This document shows, piece after piece, positions 10,628 through 20,662 of a DNA stretch of 20,739 nucleotides. The stretch comes from a virus. Where the stretch lies: the IMG/VR virus record IMGVR_UViG_3300033143_004538, positions 1 to 20,739 of that record. One strand, given 5' to 3'. Below the pieces are notes generated by a model that was given only the letters and a program-made list of their open reading frames with translations, ran no database searches and had not been told where the DNA came from. Positions within the stretch are counted from its first letter, which is position 1. Every line of letters starts with the position of its first letter. Made by a program: the position numbers and the translations under genes.

Positions 10628-10800
10628 TCTTTGAAGACGAAGACACCCGAACGTTCTTTCATTTGCTCGAGGCCGAAACACAAATTCTGTTCTATGAAAT
10701 AGAAGAATTGTTGCAGGGTTATGGCAAGCGTCTAGCAATAGATGACTGTTCGCTGGATGAAAACAACGAACTAGAGCTTGTCTTGCGGGTCATTGAGTAA
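10624..10800 (+). CDS. 58-residue acidic hypothetical protein
   Basis: ATG at 10624 overlaps the stop of the large internal protein gene (ATGA); TAA at 10798-10800. The protein is acidic (starts MIFEDEDTR), helical, with one Cys and no membrane segment. Small acidic proteins of this sort end many podovirus virion operons, but no function can be read. It overlaps the 3' end of the opposing helicase gene by 30 bp, so the two operons meet tail to tail with no spacer. Coupling to the upstream gene is the main evidence that it is real. Confidence 0.55.
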   Translation: MIFEDEDTRTFFHLLEAETQILFYEIEELLQGYGKRLAIDDCSLDENNELELVLRVIE

Positions 10801-11970
10801 TGTAAAACTGGGCGGACGCCCAAGAGATATAGTAATAATCCCTGCGTCTTTCATGTCGTGAAGGGCTTCTGAAATAAATCTTTTATCATGTGACATCGGA
10901 ATATGATTACGAAGCTGGGCATAGCTGGCGGACTTGCGTTTTCGCAATAGGTCTAAAATCTCATGCTTAATACCGACAGTGCCTTGCTGTTGTTTTTCTC
11001 CCATGGCAATCAGATCCGGAAGCTGTTTGTTTATAGAATCCAATAAGCTTAAGGCTTTGTCCCAATGATCAAGTGTGATTAGCATTTCGTTAGATTCACT
11101 AGCACTAAATACTTGGGCGAGCTTAAGCAGGTTTGTGTGGTTTCTGGCCATGAAATGTTGTAGCGTGCTCGAGCTGAGTTTTTGATTGCGTTCATCGTTT
11201 ATTGGGAACCATTCTATGTAGGCTTTTTTGAACTCTTTGGTGAGTTTAAATTGCCCGGTCATTTTATTAATCTCATGCAGATCTGCTATGAGCTTTTGTT
11301 TGACTTCCGAATTAGCACTTATACTTTCCCAAGTGGGATGTCTGACCATAAGCTGATTATGTACGACGTAGATATTTCGTGAGGCGAAGCCGCCCGCAGA
11401 ATTGGCGCCAAGAATTAATCGCTTTGCAAAATCAAAAGTAAGTCCCGAAAGCATATTAAGGCACAGATTTTTGAGCTCAAGAATCCCATCTATCTTGGTT
11501 CCTTTTTTCCAATCCACCGGACAATCATAAAGATCGGTTATCATAGGAATGATGTCACCGCCGCCCTTTTTTTCCTCCAGCACATTAGAACCTTCACTGG
11601 CATACCAATAAGCCGAACTATGAATTAGCTCTTTGTTTCCTTGATAGAAAGATTTGCGATGGCTCATTATTTCCACCAGCTTAGCTTCAGTTATGTGCTG
11701 GGGGATAAAGTTCATTCCATCAAGCTGAGAAAGTAATCCGGTCACGCCTATGCTCATAGCAGAGCTCTTTCCCATTCCGGGACCACTAACCAGCATGATA
11801 TAGAGATTGGGATAAAAGTTATATTTGTCCTGCTTAATAAACACTTTGCGCTCTAGCGCACCCGCAATAAGACTGATTCCTGTCCAGTAGTGAAATTTGT
11901 TAGGACAAAATCCATCGGCGGCGTATTTGTAATATTCGTCAAGAAAGCTGCTATAGTTTCGCTTGTTCAC
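10771..11970 (-). CDS. DUF3987-like P-loop ATPase, putative replicative helicase
   Basis: 399 residues. The start is GTG at 11970, twenty bases inside the preceding small gene and with only a weak AAAGAG ribosome site. After an N-terminal region ending in 'FHYWTGISLIAGALERKV', a Walker A motif GPGMGKSS lies at 63-70. A Walker B-like hydrophobic strand ends in 'YWYASEGSNVL' near residue 127, and 'LCLNMLSGLT' plus 'ASRNIYVV' follow as sensor/arginine candidates. The last 75 residues look like a winged helix ('ASYAQLRNHIP'). This is the plan of DUF3987/primase-helicase-associated ATPases used by phages as replicative helicases. Position in the polymerase operon supports it. No primase domain is fused. 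Whether it loads as a ring helicase is inferred. Confidence 0.7.
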   Translation of the reverse strand: MNKRNYSSFLDEYYKYAADGFCPNKFHYWTGISLIAGALERKVFIKQDKYNFYPNLYIMLVSGPGMGKSSAMSIGVTGLLSQLDGMNFIPQHITEAKLVEIMSHRKSFYQGNKELIHSSAYWYASEGSNVLEEKKGGGDIIPMITDLYDCPVDWKKGTKIDGILELKNLCLNMLSGLTFDFAKRLILGANSAGGFASRNIYVVHNQLMVRHPTWESISANSEVKQKLIADLHEINKMTGQFKLTKEFKKAYIEWFPINDERNQKLSSSTLQHFMARNHTNLLKLAQVFSASESNEMLITLDHWDKALSLLDSINKQLPDLIAMGEKQQQGTVGIKHEILDLLRKRKSASYAQLRNHIPMSHDKRFISEALHDMKDAGIITISLGRPPSFTLLNDPQDKL

Positions 11971-12091
11971 GTTGCTGCTCTTTTTGTAGATGTTTGATTT
12001 TTTTGTGGACGCGTTTAACTATCTCAGATCTATTTCTAGCTAGGAGCTTTTGTATTTCTTCCTGCATTAGCTGTTCGACTAACTTTTCCAT
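11951..12091 (-). CDS. 46-residue basic helical protein
   Basis: ATG at 12091, TAG at 11953-11951. It begins 13 bases inside the CsrA-like gene and ends 20 bases inside the helicase gene, so it is held by overlaps on both sides. The ribosome site is AAGGAA, eight bases before ATG. The protein (MEKLVEQLMQEE, then Lys/Arg/Gln-rich 'KRVHKKIKHLQKEQQ') is one amphipathic helix with heptad-like spacing and a strongly basic C-terminal half. It may bind nucleic acid or a partner such as the helicase. No family is recognised. Confidence 0.6.
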   Translation of the reverse strand: MEKLVEQLMQEEIQKLLARNRSEIVKRVHKKIKHLQKEQQREQAKL

Positions 12092-12267
12092 GGTTTAGTT
12101 CCTTCTATGTTGAGTTTTTCCGTCTCGGAAATTCTATGTATTTTAAGTTCTGTGGGCGCAGTTATAACAACTTTGCGATCTTTGTTTCGCGTGTTAGAAA
12201 ATTCAAGCACAATGTCGTTGCCGATTTTAATTTTGGTATAATCTTTAATTCCTATTGCTAGCCCCAT
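12079..12267 (-). CDS. csrA-like: CsrA/RsmA-family RNA-binding regulator homologue
   Basis: ATG at 12267 gives 62 residues, the normal CsrA length; a TTG at 12285 would add six residues but lies inside the polymerase gene and is less likely. Alignment by eye is clear across the core: 'KIKIGNDIVLEF' matches the beta-2 strand and IGDEV turn, and 'VVITAPTELKIHRISE' matches the beta-4/beta-5 strands with the invariant Ala-Pro and the RNA-binding Arg (R45, equal to R44 of E. coli). The beta-1 strand is divergent: the TRR of CsrA (R6, R7) is not kept. CsrA dimers bind GGA in RNA hairpins and block or aid translation. The gene overlaps polymerase by 10 bp and follows GGGGAGAG, so it is co-expressed with replication. 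Real RNA-binding activity is not proven. Confidence 0.8.
   Translation of the reverse strand: MGLAIGIKDYTKIKIGNDIVLEFSNTRNKDRKVVITAPTELKIHRISETEKLNIEGTKPWKS
12096..12107 (-). promoter_or_regulatory. Small hairpin with AAGGAA hexaloop before the 46-residue ORF
   Basis: On the - strand TAG-AAGGAA-CTA has only a 3-bp stem, but the loop fits the ARGGA core of CsrA targets. It lies inside the 3' end of the CsrA-like gene and forms the ribosome site of the gene at 12091. Confidence 0.3.
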
Positions 12268-14591
12268 GGTTTCATCTCTCCCCAATATTGTCCTGTTTCA
12301 CAGTCAGTTGGAATCACCAGTTTGCCTGCGGGCAATATGACTTCCGGATGCCATGAGTTAGTATTCAAGCATATCTCGCCGAGTTGGTCCACATACTTAG
12401 GCTCAACTTCAAACAGCAGCGAGTCATGGACCTGAAGTAATAAATTAAATTCTATTCGCCCTGTTTCTCTTTGGTCCCATAAGTACAACATAAGTGCGTT
12501 TGTAATATATGGGATTGTAGATTGAGGTCGGAAAGCGTACGCTTCACGGAATAGATCATCTCCAAGTCGTCCGTAGAAATAACGCTCCCATCCGACAGGA
12601 TTGTGTAGCTTACGAGTTTGTCTAACTTCACCTCTAATTCTTTGATGCCATCGACGTATTCCCGGGAATAATCTATGATATGACTCAAGTACATTTTCAG
12701 CCTCCTTTTTAGTTAATATAATATCATCGCCAATACATTGTTCTATGAAAGTTGGAACTCCCATTGCGTAGTTGGCTCCGTGTCCGGACTTCTTACCCAA
12801 GCTTCGTTTGACCTTATCGCCAGCTTTGGTCTCTCGAATAATATCTTCAGGTGTACAGTTGAATATTTCGGCGGCGACATAGCTATGGATGTCTTTTGTG
12901 TCGTCCTCGAGCATGTCGATGAGATTGTTGTCACAAGAGTCATAGGCCACGAACCGGCTCTCGGCTTGTTTGAGATCCACGTTGAAAAAGATCTTACCCT
13001 CGGGAGCCTCAAAGATCTTCTTAACATTAATACCTTTGTAGCCTCCGGGAACTGTTTGGGGATTGATTCCTTTGTTCCACGGATCTTTGTGGCCGGACCA
13101 ACGCATTGTCTCGGTGCCCACTCCGTTAAGGGTGAATCTCATTCGGTTGTCAGTATCGTACTTTATATCTAAATAACTGCTTTTGGCCTTGTTAAGTGTT
13201 GAGAGGTCAAGTAGGAGGGGGATCTCGGCGCAGGTTTTATACTTGATTCGCATTTTCTTTAAACTAGTTTGGTTAGTCGATTCTTTATATGTTTTAGTTT
13301 TCGAGTCATATTTTTTATAGAGCATAAAATTCTTAGACTTAAAATAATCTTTAAGCTGTTTATTCGACTTTGGATTGATAACGGCAGGCTCAGTGACAAG
13401 GTTAAGTTCTGTAGTAAGCTGTTCAATTCGTTCGTTGGTGTCTTTTTGGAGCGCATGAAGTTGATCGTTTGATATTCCAAGCCCACGAGAACACATTTCG
13501 CTAATGCACGGTGCGAATCGCATAACAAAGTTGTAGAACAGATCGGACAAATTTCGGTCAATGAGATCAGCTCGCTGATTAATATAACCCTCGTAGGTGT
13601 AACAGGTGTCTTTGCAGTTGTAGAGATAGTGCTCGTCCCAGTCTTTGATGTTGTTCCAGTTTTTGTTGTCTTCTTTCCAATAGGGTTGTTTGGTGTATAT
13701 TCTTCCAACATTATCGAGTCCTTTTTTTAGTTCCGGATAAAGAAACTTTTGTGCCCACATCGTGTCGTGGTGGATGTTGTTTAGTTTTATTCCATAGCGA
13801 GAGAGATACATGGTTTCATACATGTAGTTTTGTAAGATTTTTGGTTGGTCACTCTGGCAGAGCTCGGCGATCAAACTCCATATTTTGTGGTGAGTCGCGG
13901 TGCCAAAACGTGACGGAAGAATACCAATAGCGATAGCAGTATCGGGCGAGATAGCCACACCAAAGGTATTAATCCGTCCACTTGAAGTTTCAATATCAAT
14001 AGAAAGTTTGTCGGCTTGTTTGGCTCGCTCGAGAAAATCAACTGTCTCATCGACGGTGCGGTTTATCAAGAAGTTTTTAGGCGTTCGGATAAGTTCCTTC
14101 CAACGCATTTCTTCTTTAGCTTTAACGAAAGCTAGTTCGACAAAGATCTGATTGTGAAATTCGCCGAACAACCGATCAGGCAAATAACTCGGAATAGCCT
14201 TCCGGCAGGTCAAGCTGGGAAGTGTGTCGAGTAAGCTTAATTGCCACTTGTCGATTCCGCGCTTGCCGCAGATCTCCCCAAGACATAACTCACCTAAAGG
14301 AACAATCACACATAGTTCGCTTAGGTCATTTAGTCTTTGTTTTGTGTCCCGAATATAGGTATCAAGTTCCATCGGATTGATTGCTCGGGTTGTTTTGTTT
14401 GGCGGACAAAACGGAACAATAGACTCGAATCTTACCGTTGAAGGATGGATCCCCGCTTTTAAAAGTTTACCGTAAATAAAATCCTTCTCGAATCCGAAAA
14501 GGACCTCCCCCTCGGCGGCAGCAGAAACCCTAGGAAAATCGACCAACACACAAATTTTACTGTCTAGTGGTCCCGTTCCTAAAACTCTCAT
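12258..14591 (-). CDS. polA-like: Family A DNA polymerase with N-terminal UDG-like domain
   Basis: 777 residues from ATG 14591. Residues about 1-160 have a uracil-DNA-glycosylase-like fold pattern ('SKICVLVDFP', 'DFIYGKLLKAGI', 'VIVPLGELCL') but the catalytic HPS motif is replaced by 'PSYLPDRLF', so glycosylase activity is doubtful. Residues about 165-340 are a DEDDy 3'-5' proofreading exonuclease: D199/E201, N255 with E259 where Asp is usual, and Y324...D328. The polymerase domain carries 'TETMRWS' (493-499), motif A D539-x2-Q-x-E-x-R, motif B R596...K600...H604...Y608, and motif C V721-H-D-S. Motif B has His where E. coli Pol I has Phe762 and T7 has Tyr. It is the phage replicative polymerase. 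Three DNA-binding partners are encoded upstream in the same operon. Confidence 0.93.
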   Translation of the reverse strand: MRVLGTGPLDSKICVLVDFPRVSAAAEGEVLFGFEKDFIYGKLLKAGIHPSTVRFESIVPFCPPNKTTRAINPMELDTYIRDTKQRLNDLSELCVIVPLGELCLGEICGKRGIDKWQLSLLDTLPSLTCRKAIPSYLPDRLFGEFHNQIFVELAFVKAKEEMRWKELIRTPKNFLINRTVDETVDFLERAKQADKLSIDIETSSGRINTFGVAISPDTAIAIGILPSRFGTATHHKIWSLIAELCQSDQPKILQNYMYETMYLSRYGIKLNNIHHDTMWAQKFLYPELKKGLDNVGRIYTKQPYWKEDNKNWNNIKDWDEHYLYNCKDTCYTYEGYINQRADLIDRNLSDLFYNFVMRFAPCISEMCSRGLGISNDQLHALQKDTNERIEQLTTELNLVTEPAVINPKSNKQLKDYFKSKNFMLYKKYDSKTKTYKESTNQTSLKKMRIKYKTCAEIPLLLDLSTLNKAKSSYLDIKYDTDNRMRFTLNGVGTETMRWSGHKDPWNKGINPQTVPGGYKGINVKKIFEAPEGKIFFNVDLKQAESRFVAYDSCDNNLIDMLEDDTKDIHSYVAAEIFNCTPEDIIRETKAGDKVKRSLGKKSGHGANYAMGVPTFIEQCIGDDIILTKKEAENVLESYHRLFPGIRRWHQRIRGEVRQTRKLHNPVGWERYFYGRLGDDLFREAYAFRPQSTIPYITNALMLYLWDQRETGRIEFNLLLQVHDSLLFEVEPKYVDQLGEICLNTNSWHPEVILPAGKLVIPTDCETGQYWGEMKPWG

Positions 14592-14649: not shown

Positions 14650-15309
14650 TTATGCGTACTTAGATACTGATTTTACTTCTGGCCATCCGCTCGGGTTTCC
14701 GTGCTGATCCATTCCGTCAACAATCGAAACTCTTACTTCGGAGCCGATAAGTTGTTCAGTGTCAAAGGGTCCTGTTAAAGGTTCGCCAGTGGCGGCCTTG
14801 TACATTTCCTGAGTTTTAAAAATACCCTTACCAACTAACATAGTGCGGGTAATAACTCTTTTGCCATTGAAACCAGCGTCATCGCTGCCGAAAGTTTCAA
14901 GGGTCCATTTAAGCATTGCCTTGCCGGCTTTGCTTTCCACAGCGTCTGCTGCGATAATTCTTGCTGGATATACTCCAGGCTCTAATGGTTTTTGTGCTTC
15001 GGACATGTCCGGTGTTACAAGACTCATTCGTCTCTCCTTTTGTTTAGTGAACCGTTTGGTTCTGTTAATATGACTTATGTATTGTTTTTGTGTTCCCGCG
15101 CCATCATAATCGGTGCAGAGTTTTTCGGCGCAGACACAGCCCACACCAACACGATGATCTAATGTTGGGTGGGTGAGGTAATGCATATATCTAACTGGAT
15201 AGTTATTGCACATTTCGCAAGTTTGGTAGTCTTGCTCGAAGTCTGTCATGTCGCTAAACTCCCAACCTTTATGGGGATAATTTTTTTTAGTCCAGAGATT
15301 CTCGCTCAT
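14650..15309 (-). CDS. Zinc-finger/SSB-like fusion (DUF669-type OB protein)
   Basis: The best start is ATG 15309 (219 residues): it has AAGGAG seven bases upstream and forms TAATG with the previous stop; a GTG at 15342 has no support. Residues 1-94 are a small cysteine domain, 'CEMCNNYPVRYMHYLTHP' then 'VGCVCAEKLC' (C31, C34, C58, C60, C65), a family found alone in bacteria and phages. Residues 95-219 resemble phage DUF669-type single-stranded-DNA-binding proteins ('LEPGVYPARI', 'AMLKWTLETF'). M95 (ATG 15027) has its own strong site AAAGGAG, six bases away, so a 125-residue SSB may also be made. It sits between a Sak4 ATPase and polymerase, as SSBs do. The SSB role is inferred. Confidence 0.72.
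   Translation of the reverse strand: MSENLWTKKNYPHKGWEFSDMTDFEQDYQTCEMCNNYPVRYMHYLTHPTLDHRVGVGCVCAEKLCTDYDGAGTQKQYISHINRTKRFTKQKERRMSLVTPDMSEAQKPLEPGVYPARIIAADAVESKAGKAMLKWTLETFGSDDAGFNGKRVITRTMLVGKGIFKTQEMYKAATGEPLTGPFDTEQLIGSEVRVSIVDGMDQHGNPSGWPEVKSVSKYA
15027..15040 (-). promoter_or_regulatory. Internal ribosome site and start for SSB-only product
   Basis: AAAGGAGAGACGA directly precedes an in-frame ATG at 15027 (GGAG six bases from ATG). It is at the exact junction of the cysteine domain and the SSB-like domain, and would give a 125-residue protein. No hairpin is visible around it. Confidence 0.6.
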
Positions 15310-15533
15310 TAATGAACTCCTTCGGAGTCCCAAAGAAACCACAGATCTAAGTAATTGAGCATCCGGGCATCAAGCTCTATCGGCGCTCCGTCATATACTA
15401 GCGTGCCGTGATGTGCTTCAACATGACAGACTTTTAGACGTTTGAAATCAAAACAAATATCAGTTGGCTTAAGAAAATCAGTTTGGCAGGTAGCGTTTAA
15501 TTTCGTCGCATTTACAGGATAAGTTTTTCTCAT
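15309..15533 (-). CDS. 74-residue hypothetical protein
   Basis: ATG 15533 overlaps the stop of the ATPase gene (ATGA), and its stop overlaps the next ATG (TAATG), with GGAG upstream. It has no membrane segment. Cys at about 16, 27 and 36 and the 'CHVEAHHG' stretch could hold a metal, though the spacing matches no finger I know. The Trp/Leu-rich C-terminus ('MLNYLDLWFLWD') may be a binding face. It is a coupled member of the recombination block; no function can be given. Confidence 0.65.
   Translation of the reverse strand: MRKTYPVNATKLNATCQTDFLKPTDICFDFKRLKVCHVEAHHGTLVYDGAPIELDARMLNYLDLWFLWDSEGVH
15314..15330 (-). promoter_or_regulatory. RNA hairpin enclosing the zinc-finger/SSB ribosome site
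   Basis: On the - strand GGACTCC-GAA-GGAGTTC can pair over seven positions (one G-U) around a three-base loop. The 3' arm and loop contain AAGGAG, the ribosome site of the ATG at 15309. Initiation of the fusion should need ribosomes arriving from the upstream gene, whose stop overlaps this ATG. Confidence 0.6.
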
Positions 15534-16264
15534 TTGTTTAACTCCAATACTAGTTTATTATAATCAAGCTCAAGCTTAGCCGGAAGCCCGCGTTGAGTTC
15601 GGCAGTTAAACTTTCTGTCGCTTTGGGTTTGCAGCATATGCTTGCGGGTAGTGCCCTCGCCTTCGACATAAGCGTAATAGACTTCCTCGAAATATATCGG
15701 AAGCTCTTTGGCTAGCTTGCCCGTAAGCATCGGAACTCTTAACAACTGTCCGGTGTTTTCGTCTTTAACTATATCAATATGTGCGATCATTACTACGTTG
15801 CAAGGAAACGAAAGAATTTCTGCAATGAATTGCTTCATAAAAATTCTAAACACACCATAGTCCTGGAGTGCCGGGGCCTGTGCTCCTTGGGTTATTACTC
15901 TTTTGATTCCCGGATTGGACTTCATAAGATAGGACATGATTCGATCAGACAAAGTGGTGAGGCTATCAATGACGATAGTTTTGTATGGAAAATCTCCACT
16001 CGTAGCCAGTTGTTTGAGCTTGCCCATGTCATCGTTGAAGCGTTGACCGGCTTCACCGGGGTTGGTTTTCGATGCCGGATACTGATCATAAGTAATATGA
16101 CCAATGTCTTGAGTGAAGCTTTTCACTGATCCGACCTTGAGGTCAAAATCATAGTAGTGAGTAGGGCCGGGGAACTTTGATGCGAAGCACGTCTTGCCAA
16201 CCCCACTCTCACCGAATAGTAATATTTTTATATTTTCGTCTGTCTTAAGTTCATTTAGTTTCAT
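15530..16264 (-). CDS. RecA-fold ATPase, Sak4-like recombination protein
   Basis: 244 residues; ATG 16264 overlaps the nuclease stop (ATGA). Walker A is GESGVGKT at 18-25, followed by 'YYDFD' near 38-41. The Walker B strand is 'TIVIDSLTTL' at 96-105 and a third strand is 'NVVMIAHID' at 156-164, the order seen in RecA/RadB-like cores. Length and motifs fit the phage AAA_24/Sak4 group, single-strand annealing-type recombinases that work with SSB and are often next to a Cas4/RecB-like nuclease, exactly as here. It likely promotes annealing during replication or repair of phage DNA. The N-terminal oligomerisation segments of full RecA are absent. Confidence 0.8.
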   Translation of the reverse strand: MKLNELKTDENIKILLFGESGVGKTCFASKFPGPTHYYDFDLKVGSVKSFTQDIGHITYDQYPASKTNPGEAGQRFNDDMGKLKQLATSGDFPYKTIVIDSLTTLSDRIMSYLMKSNPGIKRVITQGAQAPALQDYGVFRIFMKQFIAEILSFPCNVVMIAHIDIVKDENTGQLLRVPMLTGKLAKELPIYFEEVYYAYVEGEGTTRKHMLQTQSDRKFNCRTQRGLPAKLELDYNKLVLELNK

Positions 16265-17295
16265 TCATAAGCTCCAGTGTTAAATTTATTAACTAAAATA
16301 CTTTCATGTAAAGTTTTTGGTACACTACAAACGTCTAGAAATTTACAGCCGCCATAAGAAGCACAACTGTTCACTGGGCCCCGAGGCCAAAAGCCAGACT
16401 CCTTACATTTGATATATTGTTCAACGTAATATTTGAGTGTTGTTTTGAGCTCGTCAAAATCTTCCTGCGTTCGGTTAGTAATCTGACGGACATAATTAGG
16501 AATCGTACCACGAGCTGTTTTGGGTTTCGCTTTAACTTGTATTCCGTTGATCATAAACATTTCGCTGTCGATGCCTAGTTCTTGTTGGGCGCCGAGAATA
16601 TATCCCGTGTATTGGTTGTTTGGTTTTAATCGGTTATAAAAATCATTCCCAAGAACGCTAGTGGTCTTATGATCGGCCACAATGATGTTTGATGTCTGAG
16701 CGTTCTTGAGAACAACATCAATAGTGCCAAACAGATTAATGGTTAGGTGATCTTCTTCGATAAATTTATGCGTGAACTTTCTCTCTATCATCGGTCCATC
16801 TTCGTCACAATGTACGACAAACGGATCGTCCGCATAGCGTTTAAAATAATGTTCGAGGGTCCAAACGCCAGTCGGAATGGATCGCTTGTCATATTCGTCT
16901 AGGTTTATAAGGGGGCTGGCCATGATGCAAAAATCTTCAACACTCTTACAAACCAAGCAGCCAGTGTGATCGTTGGGCTGACCGTGGGCCATGAGCTCAA
17001 AATTCTCCACGCACTGTTTTGTTATTTGGCGCTTGTTGATGTCGCCTTCGTAATAAGTTTCCAGCGCCTTGTGAATCGCGCTGCCATATAACATAGCCGG
17101 ACTCTCAGTGTTACTTGTGAGACCGCGCTCAAGAATATAATAACTCTTTCTCATACAAGTTTGGAGCAAGTCCAGCGAGCTGTTATTTATGTCCACCGTT
17201 ATGTGGCCATCAGGAGCCTTAGTGTATTGAAGCATTTTTTTTGGTGTCTTGTGCTCAGTTGTAATTTCATTAGGAAGTTCTACATCCACATTCAT
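16261..17295 (-). CDS. PD-(D/E)XK nuclease, Cas4/RecB-like with Fe-S cysteines
   Basis: 344 residues from ATG 17295, preceded by GAGGGG. Nuclease motifs in order: 'GSAIHKALE' with H75, 'GTIDVVLKN' with D193, 'VADHKTTS' with D208 and K210, and 'QYTGYILGAQ' with Q228 and Y232. One cysteine before the core (C47 in 'LLQTCMRKSY') and three after it (C311, C317, C323) match the 4Fe-4S ligand layout of Cas4 and AddB. Such enzymes resect or trim DNA ends. Gene order with a Sak4 ATPase and SSB indicates a phage recombination module rather than a CRISPR one; no repeats or other cas genes are present. It is the first gene of the - strand replication operon. Confidence 0.85.
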   Translation of the reverse strand: MNVDVELPNEITTEHKTPKKMLQYTKAPDGHITVDINNSSLDLLQTCMRKSYYILERGLTSNTESPAMLYGSAIHKALETYYEGDINKRQITKQCVENFELMAHGQPNDHTGCLVCKSVEDFCIMASPLINLDEYDKRSIPTGVWTLEHYFKRYADDPFVVHCDEDGPMIERKFTHKFIEEDHLTINLFGTIDVVLKNAQTSNIIVADHKTTSVLGNDFYNRLKPNNQYTGYILGAQQELGIDSEMFMINGIQVKAKPKTARGTIPNYVRQITNRTQEDFDELKTTLKYYVEQYIKCKESGFWPRGPVNSCASYGGCKFLDVCSVPKTLHESILVNKFNTGAYE

Positions 17296-17720: not shown

Positions 17721-17950
17721 TGACCGCAATATATACATTTGTACTTAAGTATGTTTTGGATTTTATTTTTGGTAAGGTCCAGACTTATTTCCGTACGCAA
17801 TCTAAAAAGCAAGAGAGCAAAAACGAAATTGAAATAAAAGTCAAACGGCTCAACGAGGCGATTAAGATTGCATATGACGGAGAGGATATTACGGATGAAC
17901 AAAGTAAAGAAATTATTAGTTCTGCTCGGGATCTTATTAGTTCTTACTAG
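17720..17950 (+). CDS. 76-residue protein with hydrophobic N-terminus, possible inner-membrane lysis protein
   Basis: ATG 17720 is coupled by TAATG. Residues about 4-24 ('IYTFVLKYVLDFIFGKV') form a hydrophobic or amphipathic helix, followed by a charged coiled-coil-like region ('SKNEIEIKVKRLNEAIKI'). The next gene, a lipoprotein, starts inside it in another frame. That arrangement, an N-terminal membrane anchor plus coil overlapped by a lipoprotein gene, is like Rz/Rz1 spanin pairs, although 76 residues is short for an inner-membrane spanin. A pinholin-type or unrelated membrane protein is possible. Confidence 0.55.
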   Translation: MTAIYTFVLKYVLDFIFGKVQTYFRTQSKKQESKNEIEIKVKRLNEAIKIAYDGEDITDEQSKEIISSARDLISSY

Positions 17951-18146
17951 CTGTAAGATTAGTGAGCCCAAGCTTCAATTTTGTGTTCTGAACAAAGTCA
18001 CTGAGTGTACTTGTTTTGATGGCGATAAGGATATTGTTAAGCCGATAAAAGAGTGTTTGGGTTATTTGATGCTCAGTCCGGATGACTTTGGGCTGGCAGC
18101 TTTGCATCACGATGAACTCCATATTGAGCTGGATTTATGCGAATAG
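17895..18146 (+). CDS. Small lipoprotein, possible outer-membrane spanin
   Basis: ATG 17895 gives 83 residues; a TTG at 17868 would only add a tail before the signal peptide. The N-terminus MNKVKKLLVLLGILLVLTSC is a textbook lipoprotein signal with lipobox L17-T-S-C20. The mature part is about 64 residues with four more cysteines and the ending 'HHDELHIELDLCE'. GGAGAGG (17878-17884) is the ribosome site. It overlaps the previous gene by 56 bases, as Rz1-type genes do, but it is not proline-rich. Export and lipidation are well supported; the spanin role is an inference. It overlaps the 3' end of an opposing gene by 12 bp. Confidence 0.7.
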   Translation: MNKVKKLLVLLGILLVLTSCKISEPKLQFCVLNKVTECTCFDGDKDIVKPIKECLGYLMLSPDDFGLAALHHDELHIELDLCE

Positions 18147-20251: not shown

Positions 20252-20372
20252 GGTGTTGTTCCTTTTTTAAGGCTAAATACTCTCTGATCTCTAGTTTTTG
20301 GGAGGGCGTCGGGAAGTTATATTCGTCCCAGTTATAAAACGTAACTTCGTCTTCATCGTCATGTTCGATCAT
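20163..20372 (-). CDS. Acidic small protein, C-terminal third overlapped
   Basis: ATG 20372 is coupled to the LuxR-type gene stop (ATGA). Residues 1-38 look real ('DEVTFYNWDEYNFPTP'); residues 39-69 are Thr/Arg/Gln-rich and lie in the region where the next gene uses another frame. The codons at K36-K37 form A-AAA-AAG in the phase that allows -1 slippage, which would end the protein after 42 residues. Function unknown. Confidence 0.5.
   Translation of the reverse strand: MIEHDDEDEVTFYNWDEYNFPTPSQKLEIREYLALKKEQHRVSRKTPTNTKRDTKTIRQNETGEQTSEI
20261..20272 (-). promoter_or_regulatory. Small hairpin at ribosome site of the 73-residue gene
   Basis: CCTT-AAAA-AAGG on the - strand can fold into a 4-bp stem with a tetraloop and covers part of the AAGGAA site used by GTG 20251. 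It also contains the slippery A-AAA-AAG of the overlapping ORF. Confidence 0.3.
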
Positions 20373-20662
20373 AATCCCACTAGTCCCGGAGCGAGCACGT
20401 CATCGGCATAGATTGTTCGTGCAGATTTAAAACCTTCTAATTCTTCTTGTCTCATGTAACTAAAACACATGTACATTAGTTTGGCTCGGGATTCGAGGGT
20501 CAGTTTTTTATACACGTTAGTGAGGTGGAATTTGACGGTGGATTCTGAGAGGAATATTTCGTTTCCAATCTCTCTATTTGACAGTCCGAAGGCAGTTAAA
20601 TAAGCCACGTCTATTTCCCTGTTTGTTAGGCCGATGGCCTTGAGATGCTCTTTGAGTGTCAT
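20369..20662 (-). CDS. Stand-alone LuxR-type HTH transcription regulator
   Basis: 97 residues from ATG 20662. Residues about 11-66 form a GerE/LuxR four-helix DNA-binding domain: 'LTNREIDVAYLTAFGLSNREIG', the recognition-helix region 'SESTVKFHLTNVYKKL', and 'SRAKLM' at the end. There is no receiver, autoinducer or other sensor domain; a 30-residue tail follows. It should bind DNA as a dimer and regulate phage or host promoters. No ribosome site is visible, and the promoter suggests a leaderless mRNA. Two small ORFs and the amidase follow in the same direction. Such HTH-only proteins are known in bacteria; their targets here are unknown. Confidence 0.82.
   Translation of the reverse strand: MTLKEHLKAIGLTNREIDVAYLTAFGLSNREIGNEIFLSESTVKFHLTNVYKKLTLESRAKLMYMCFSYMRQEELEGFKSARTIYADDVLAPGLVGL

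Follow-up and report, generated by a model that had tools for sequence, protein, structure and literature searches.

We show that a virus encodes a divergent homologue of the RNA-binding regulator CsrA within its replication operon. The gene lies in a virus record of 20.7 kb, analysed as a whole and referred to here as the window. It is conserved in one relative, overlaps its neighbours tightly and has lost part of the surface with which CsrA usually grips RNA. On balance, we favour the reading that it encodes a divergent phage CsrA which is produced alongside the replication proteins and regulates translation by binding RNA, its targets probably being host mRNAs. The presence of a CsrA-like gene at this place had been noticed in a first-pass annotation made from the sequence alone and is confirmed here, while the interpretation given there is partly supported.

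The replication and recombination module of the window is encoded on the minus strand, from 17295 to 10771. It comprises, in order of reading, genes for an exonuclease, a Sak4-like ATPase, a DUF669 protein and a DNA polymerase, the CsrA-like open reading frame (ORF), a small basic ORF (ORF46) and a gene for a DUF3987 ATPase of the primase/helicase type (Table 1). All four genes from the polymerase to the primase/helicase overlap. The last 10 bases of the polymerase gene overlap the start of csrA, where the sequence reads GGGGAGAGATGAAACC-ATG-GGGCTAG, the end of csrA overlaps ORF46 by 13 bases, and the GTG start of the primase/helicase gene overlaps ORF46 in turn. The presumed ribosome-binding site of csrA is situated inside the polymerase reading frame and contains GGA. 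Its counterpart in the nearest relative found, L002 (IMGVR 3300028844_006411; polymerase 71% and primase 63% identical), is GGGGAGAA. The earlier placement of a CsrA homologue inside the replication operon was right, except that the helicase gene does not abut csrA directly; ORF46 intervenes. In L002 a small ORF, 52% identical, occupies the place of ORF46, and one is also found there in L009 and L014, two relatives which lack csrA.

Table 1. Genes and sites of the replication region of the window.
Feature	Position	Strand	Evidence
CsrA-like gene, 62 aa (MGLAIGIKDYTKIKIGNDIVLEFSNTRNKDRKVVITAPTELKIHRISETEKLNIEGTKPWKS)	12079..12267	minus	Pfam CsrA, E 2.7e-6; L002 orthologue at the same place; purifying selection in frame; AlphaFold2 match
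Family A DNA polymerase gene (ATGGGGCTAG)	12258..14591	minus	Pfam DNA_pol_A, E 4.3e-39; 3'-5' exonuclease domain
Presumed csrA ribosome-binding site, purine-rich (GGGGAGAG upstream of ATG)	12276..12283	minus	sequence
ORF46, basic, 46 aa, probably helical	11951..12091	minus	sequence
Primase/helicase-type ATPase gene (DUF3987)	10771..11970	minus	Pfam DUF3987, E 3.1e-7; phrog_14296 DNA primase, 1.9e-39
DUF669 protein, Sak4-like AAA ATPase, PD-(D/E)XK exonuclease (rest of the replication/recombination module)	14650..17295	minus	Pfam, PHROG

Three further observations concern the window. On the coding strand, the polymerase/csrA and csrA/ORF46 junctions have the string AAACCATGG in common (12264-12272 and 12088-12096, minus strand), which would fit a duplication of the start site on acquisition of csrA; the second copy is absent in L002. 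At 20369-20662 (minus strand) a LuxR-type (GerE) helix-turn-helix protein of 97 aa is encoded, a stand-alone DNA-binding domain (Pfam E 8.9e-17). An apparent lysis region holds a small putative lipoprotein with an LVLTSC lipobox (17868-18146, plus strand), which suggests a Gram-negative host.

The CsrA-like ORF consists of 62 codons and a stop and narrowly passes the gathering cut-off of the Pfam CsrA family (PF02599; 27.7 bits against 27, E = 2.7e-6). The core described in the first-pass annotation is present on the minus strand, with IGND at residues 15-18, APTE at 37-40 and IHR including R45. The CsrA-like ORF of L002 occupies the equivalent position and shares 50% identity with that of the window over 46 codons; at 20.8 bits it falls below the Pfam cut-off. 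The match of the window ORF to phrog_9500, 'CsrA-like regulator', is weak (E 0.009), and at 16.3 bits it lies far under the cut-off of 70.1 for the NCBIfam csrA equivalog (TIGR00202), in which it differs from canonical CsrA/RsmA proteins. Identity to canonical CsrAs is only 20-25%. A profile of the window/L002 pair aligned to eight phage CsrAs, seven canonical and one of the PTXU04 type, gave an hhalign probability of 95.8 (E 8e-9, 44 columns). The resemblance to CsrA exceeds chance.

An AlphaFold2 monomer model, built from the window and L002 sequences alone without any canonical CsrA sequence, has low to medium confidence (pLDDT 68) and shows a C-terminal helix (48-56) in addition to strands beta-2 to beta-4; the swapped strands beta-1 and beta-5 cannot appear in a monomer model. 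Its best 12 PDB matches are all CsrA/RsmA chains, but with E values of 0.05 or worse. A second, deeper model reproduces these three strands but has no helix; searched against viral folds, it gave mixed matches, several of them phage CsrAs. The protein resembles the CsrA/RsmA family (E. coli CsrA, Pseudomonas fluorescens RsmE) in size, in the beta-2 to beta-4 core, in the IG-D turn, in the AP-x-E...HR motif with its essential arginine and in its best fold-search matches. Most likely it would dimerise by strand swapping, as CsrA does.

The RNA-binding residues set it apart. L4 in beta-1 and R44 in beta-5 have been rated the most critical residues of CsrA (PMC7652899), and R6, R7, E46 and I47 matter when the E. 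coli or the C. jejuni protein binds RNA (PMC6692469). In our alignment, E. coli L2, L4, V40, V42 and R44 correspond to L3, I5, L41, I43 and R45 in the window and to L3, L5, L41, I43 and R45 in L002. Both beta-1 hydrophobics and the essential beta-5 arginine are therefore retained, as is the core pattern IG-DIVLEF and ITxPxELKI in both orthologues. R6, R7, E46 and I47 are not conserved. LTRR of E. coli CsrA and RsmE becomes IGIK in the window and LTIN in L002, R6 being replaced by I7 in both proteins and R7 by K8 and N8, respectively. TRR thus reads GIK in the window, with one arginine replaced by lysine, and TIN in L002. The annotation had correctly reported both arginines as gone from the window protein and R45 as kept, but had missed that E46, the salt-bridge partner of R6, is lost as well (S47 in the window, K47 in L002). 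Since both ends of the R6-E46 bridge are lost in both orthologues, this looks like a property of the branch and not like a sequencing error. Without the bridge and R7, recognition should persist, but with a changed affinity or dimer stability, and the loss of the bridge may also change the choice of RNA.

Phage-borne csrA genes as such are already known. They were found in 30 of 2517 phages (PMC7366521), and many are present in GenBank and IMG/VR, for which an anti-CRISPR role has been suggested (PMC8450108). A copy between polymerase and helicase genes, called striking in the first-pass annotation, is only partly so, as phage csrA genes have been catalogued in these two studies and the csrA of phage L007 adjoins a YqaJ recombinase gene. 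The closest annotated phage relatives are the CsrA-like gp28 proteins of Escherichia phages PTXU04, Pondi and HelliStehle_Bas95 (Xuquatrovirus), with 39% over 44 aa. They share the GL-x-I start of beta-1, the IGNDIV turn and the divergence after beta-5. Unlike the window protein, they keep TRR in beta-1 (LRITRR), and their genes lie beside holin and endolysin genes instead of between polymerase and primase. Further phage csrA genes occur in Pseudomonas RsmM phages, Vibrio phages, Lessievirus JC1 (gp47) and the phages L007, L099 and L101. In the last three they are near apparent recombination or early genes, of which only the YqaJ gene of L007 is confirmed by Pfam. The JC1 gene lies between virion genes, and its product is possibly a virion protein (PMC9144972). 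In contrast to the window, the other phage CsrAs examined have other gene contexts and a near-canonical beta-1, all of the near-canonical ones compared beginning LILTR. What distinguishes the window protein is the loss of part of the usual RNA-gripping surface.

A bolder reading, which we think unlikely, takes the protein for a phage-specific CsrA branch with a rebuilt RNA face, in which the R6-E46 bridge has been replaced. It would then recognise a different RNA motif or form mixed dimers that poison host CsrA, and would be directed against the host or its defences while being expressed with the replication proteins. Quite improbable is plain interference with host CsrA, in which the phage protein would pair with host subunits or compete for RNAs or protein partners and, owing to a defect in its own beta-1 face, reduce the activity of host CsrA. 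The altered beta-1 RNA face and the core pattern kept in both orthologues would suit this, and each face of a mixed dimer would combine strands of both proteins, normal beta-1 with phage beta-5 on one side and phage beta-1 with normal beta-5 on the opposite side. However, there is no demonstrated case of a heterodimer between CsrA paralogues (PMC7366521), and co-folding with host CsrA is uncertain because of the low identity to canonical CsrAs.

We give no better chance to self-regulation, in which the protein would bind GGA in the polymerase-csrA-ORF46-primase mRNA and set the ratio or timing of the replication proteins. The position of csrA inside an operon of overlapping genes is consistent with it, as are three GGA within -60 to +20 of each of the csrA and ORF46 starts and the GGA that the window and L002 each have in the two presumed ribosome-binding sites. 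Yet GGA is expected in any ribosome-binding site, and close relatives run the same operon without csrA. Near the gene starts of the phage GGA shows no enrichment, with 38 occurrences where 42 are expected, and at the csrA and ORF46 starts no RNA hairpin beats shuffled sequences, leaving no stable GGA-presenting hairpin. Because the gene starts of the phage itself have no excess of GGA, likelier targets than phage RNAs would be mRNAs or Csr RNAs of the host, as in the regulator of host mRNAs that we favour.

Least probable is a drifting relic, an acquired csrA which no longer binds RNA and persists only because, as a spacer or overlap, it keeps polymerase and ORF46 translationally coupled: the weak family score, the loss of R6, R7 and E46, the C-terminal tail of L002 csrA, which is overprinted by the ORF46 frame, and the relatives that do without csrA fit it, but the frame has stayed open and core residues including R45 have been kept across about 29% polymerase divergence. 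In the window/L002 comparison the csrA frame has no stops, whereas the other two frames are 24-27% identical, about half the in-frame value, with several stops. With dN 0.53 and dS 1.16, dN/dS is about 0.46, a rough value from only 46 codons.

A further 75 phage records encode a related polymerase or primase. Even with the threshold relaxed to E <= 1, L002 alone of these gave a match to CsrA, at the same position as in the window; the other 74 have none anywhere, and a local profile search over the relatives' loci agrees. The next closest phages, L014 (polymerase 50% identical) and L009 (45%), have no csrA, and there the polymerase overlaps or abuts the small ORF preceding the primase. About 70 further polymerase relatives also lack csrA. 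The polymerase-primase pair is common in the relatives and its gap carries different cargo in different phages. By eye, GIY-YIG-like and HNH-like ORFs are seen in it (L067:8340-8981, L079:8722-9357, L065:9306-9734), so that the gap looks like a cargo site. The absence of csrA from L009, L014 and the some 70 others therefore argues for a lineage-specific gain in a cargo-prone gap. A single gain is the simplest history; loss in the other lines needs more steps. The gene would have been gained at the point where ribosomes are handed over from the polymerase gene to the small ORF preceding the primase, and so would be made together with the replication proteins.

Scans of IMG/VR with single sequences and with alignments recovered, besides canonical or PTXU04-type CsrAs, L002 as the only further member of this subfamily. 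A scan of genome contigs gave zero confirmed relatives and a plasmid search zero matches. A match to Vibrio phage 1.285.O lacks the HR of beta-5 and looks like chance. Relatives of the polymerase in genomes were limited to two distant Omnitrophota MAG contigs. In two polymerase relatives (L013:3959-5605, L010:4563-5363) the polymerase is split into two ORFs, with an apparent intein-like insert in the second half in L013 (by eye).

According to one proposal, phage CsrAs reset the physiology and immunity of the host (PMC8450108). Plaques become smaller when the CsrA of phage PTXU04 is knocked down, so that one such protein is needed for normal plaques (PMC11879866). A natural variant which keeps the essential beta-5 arginine but has no R6-E46 bridge would reveal what phages require of the CsrA surface, and also whether mixed dimers occur.
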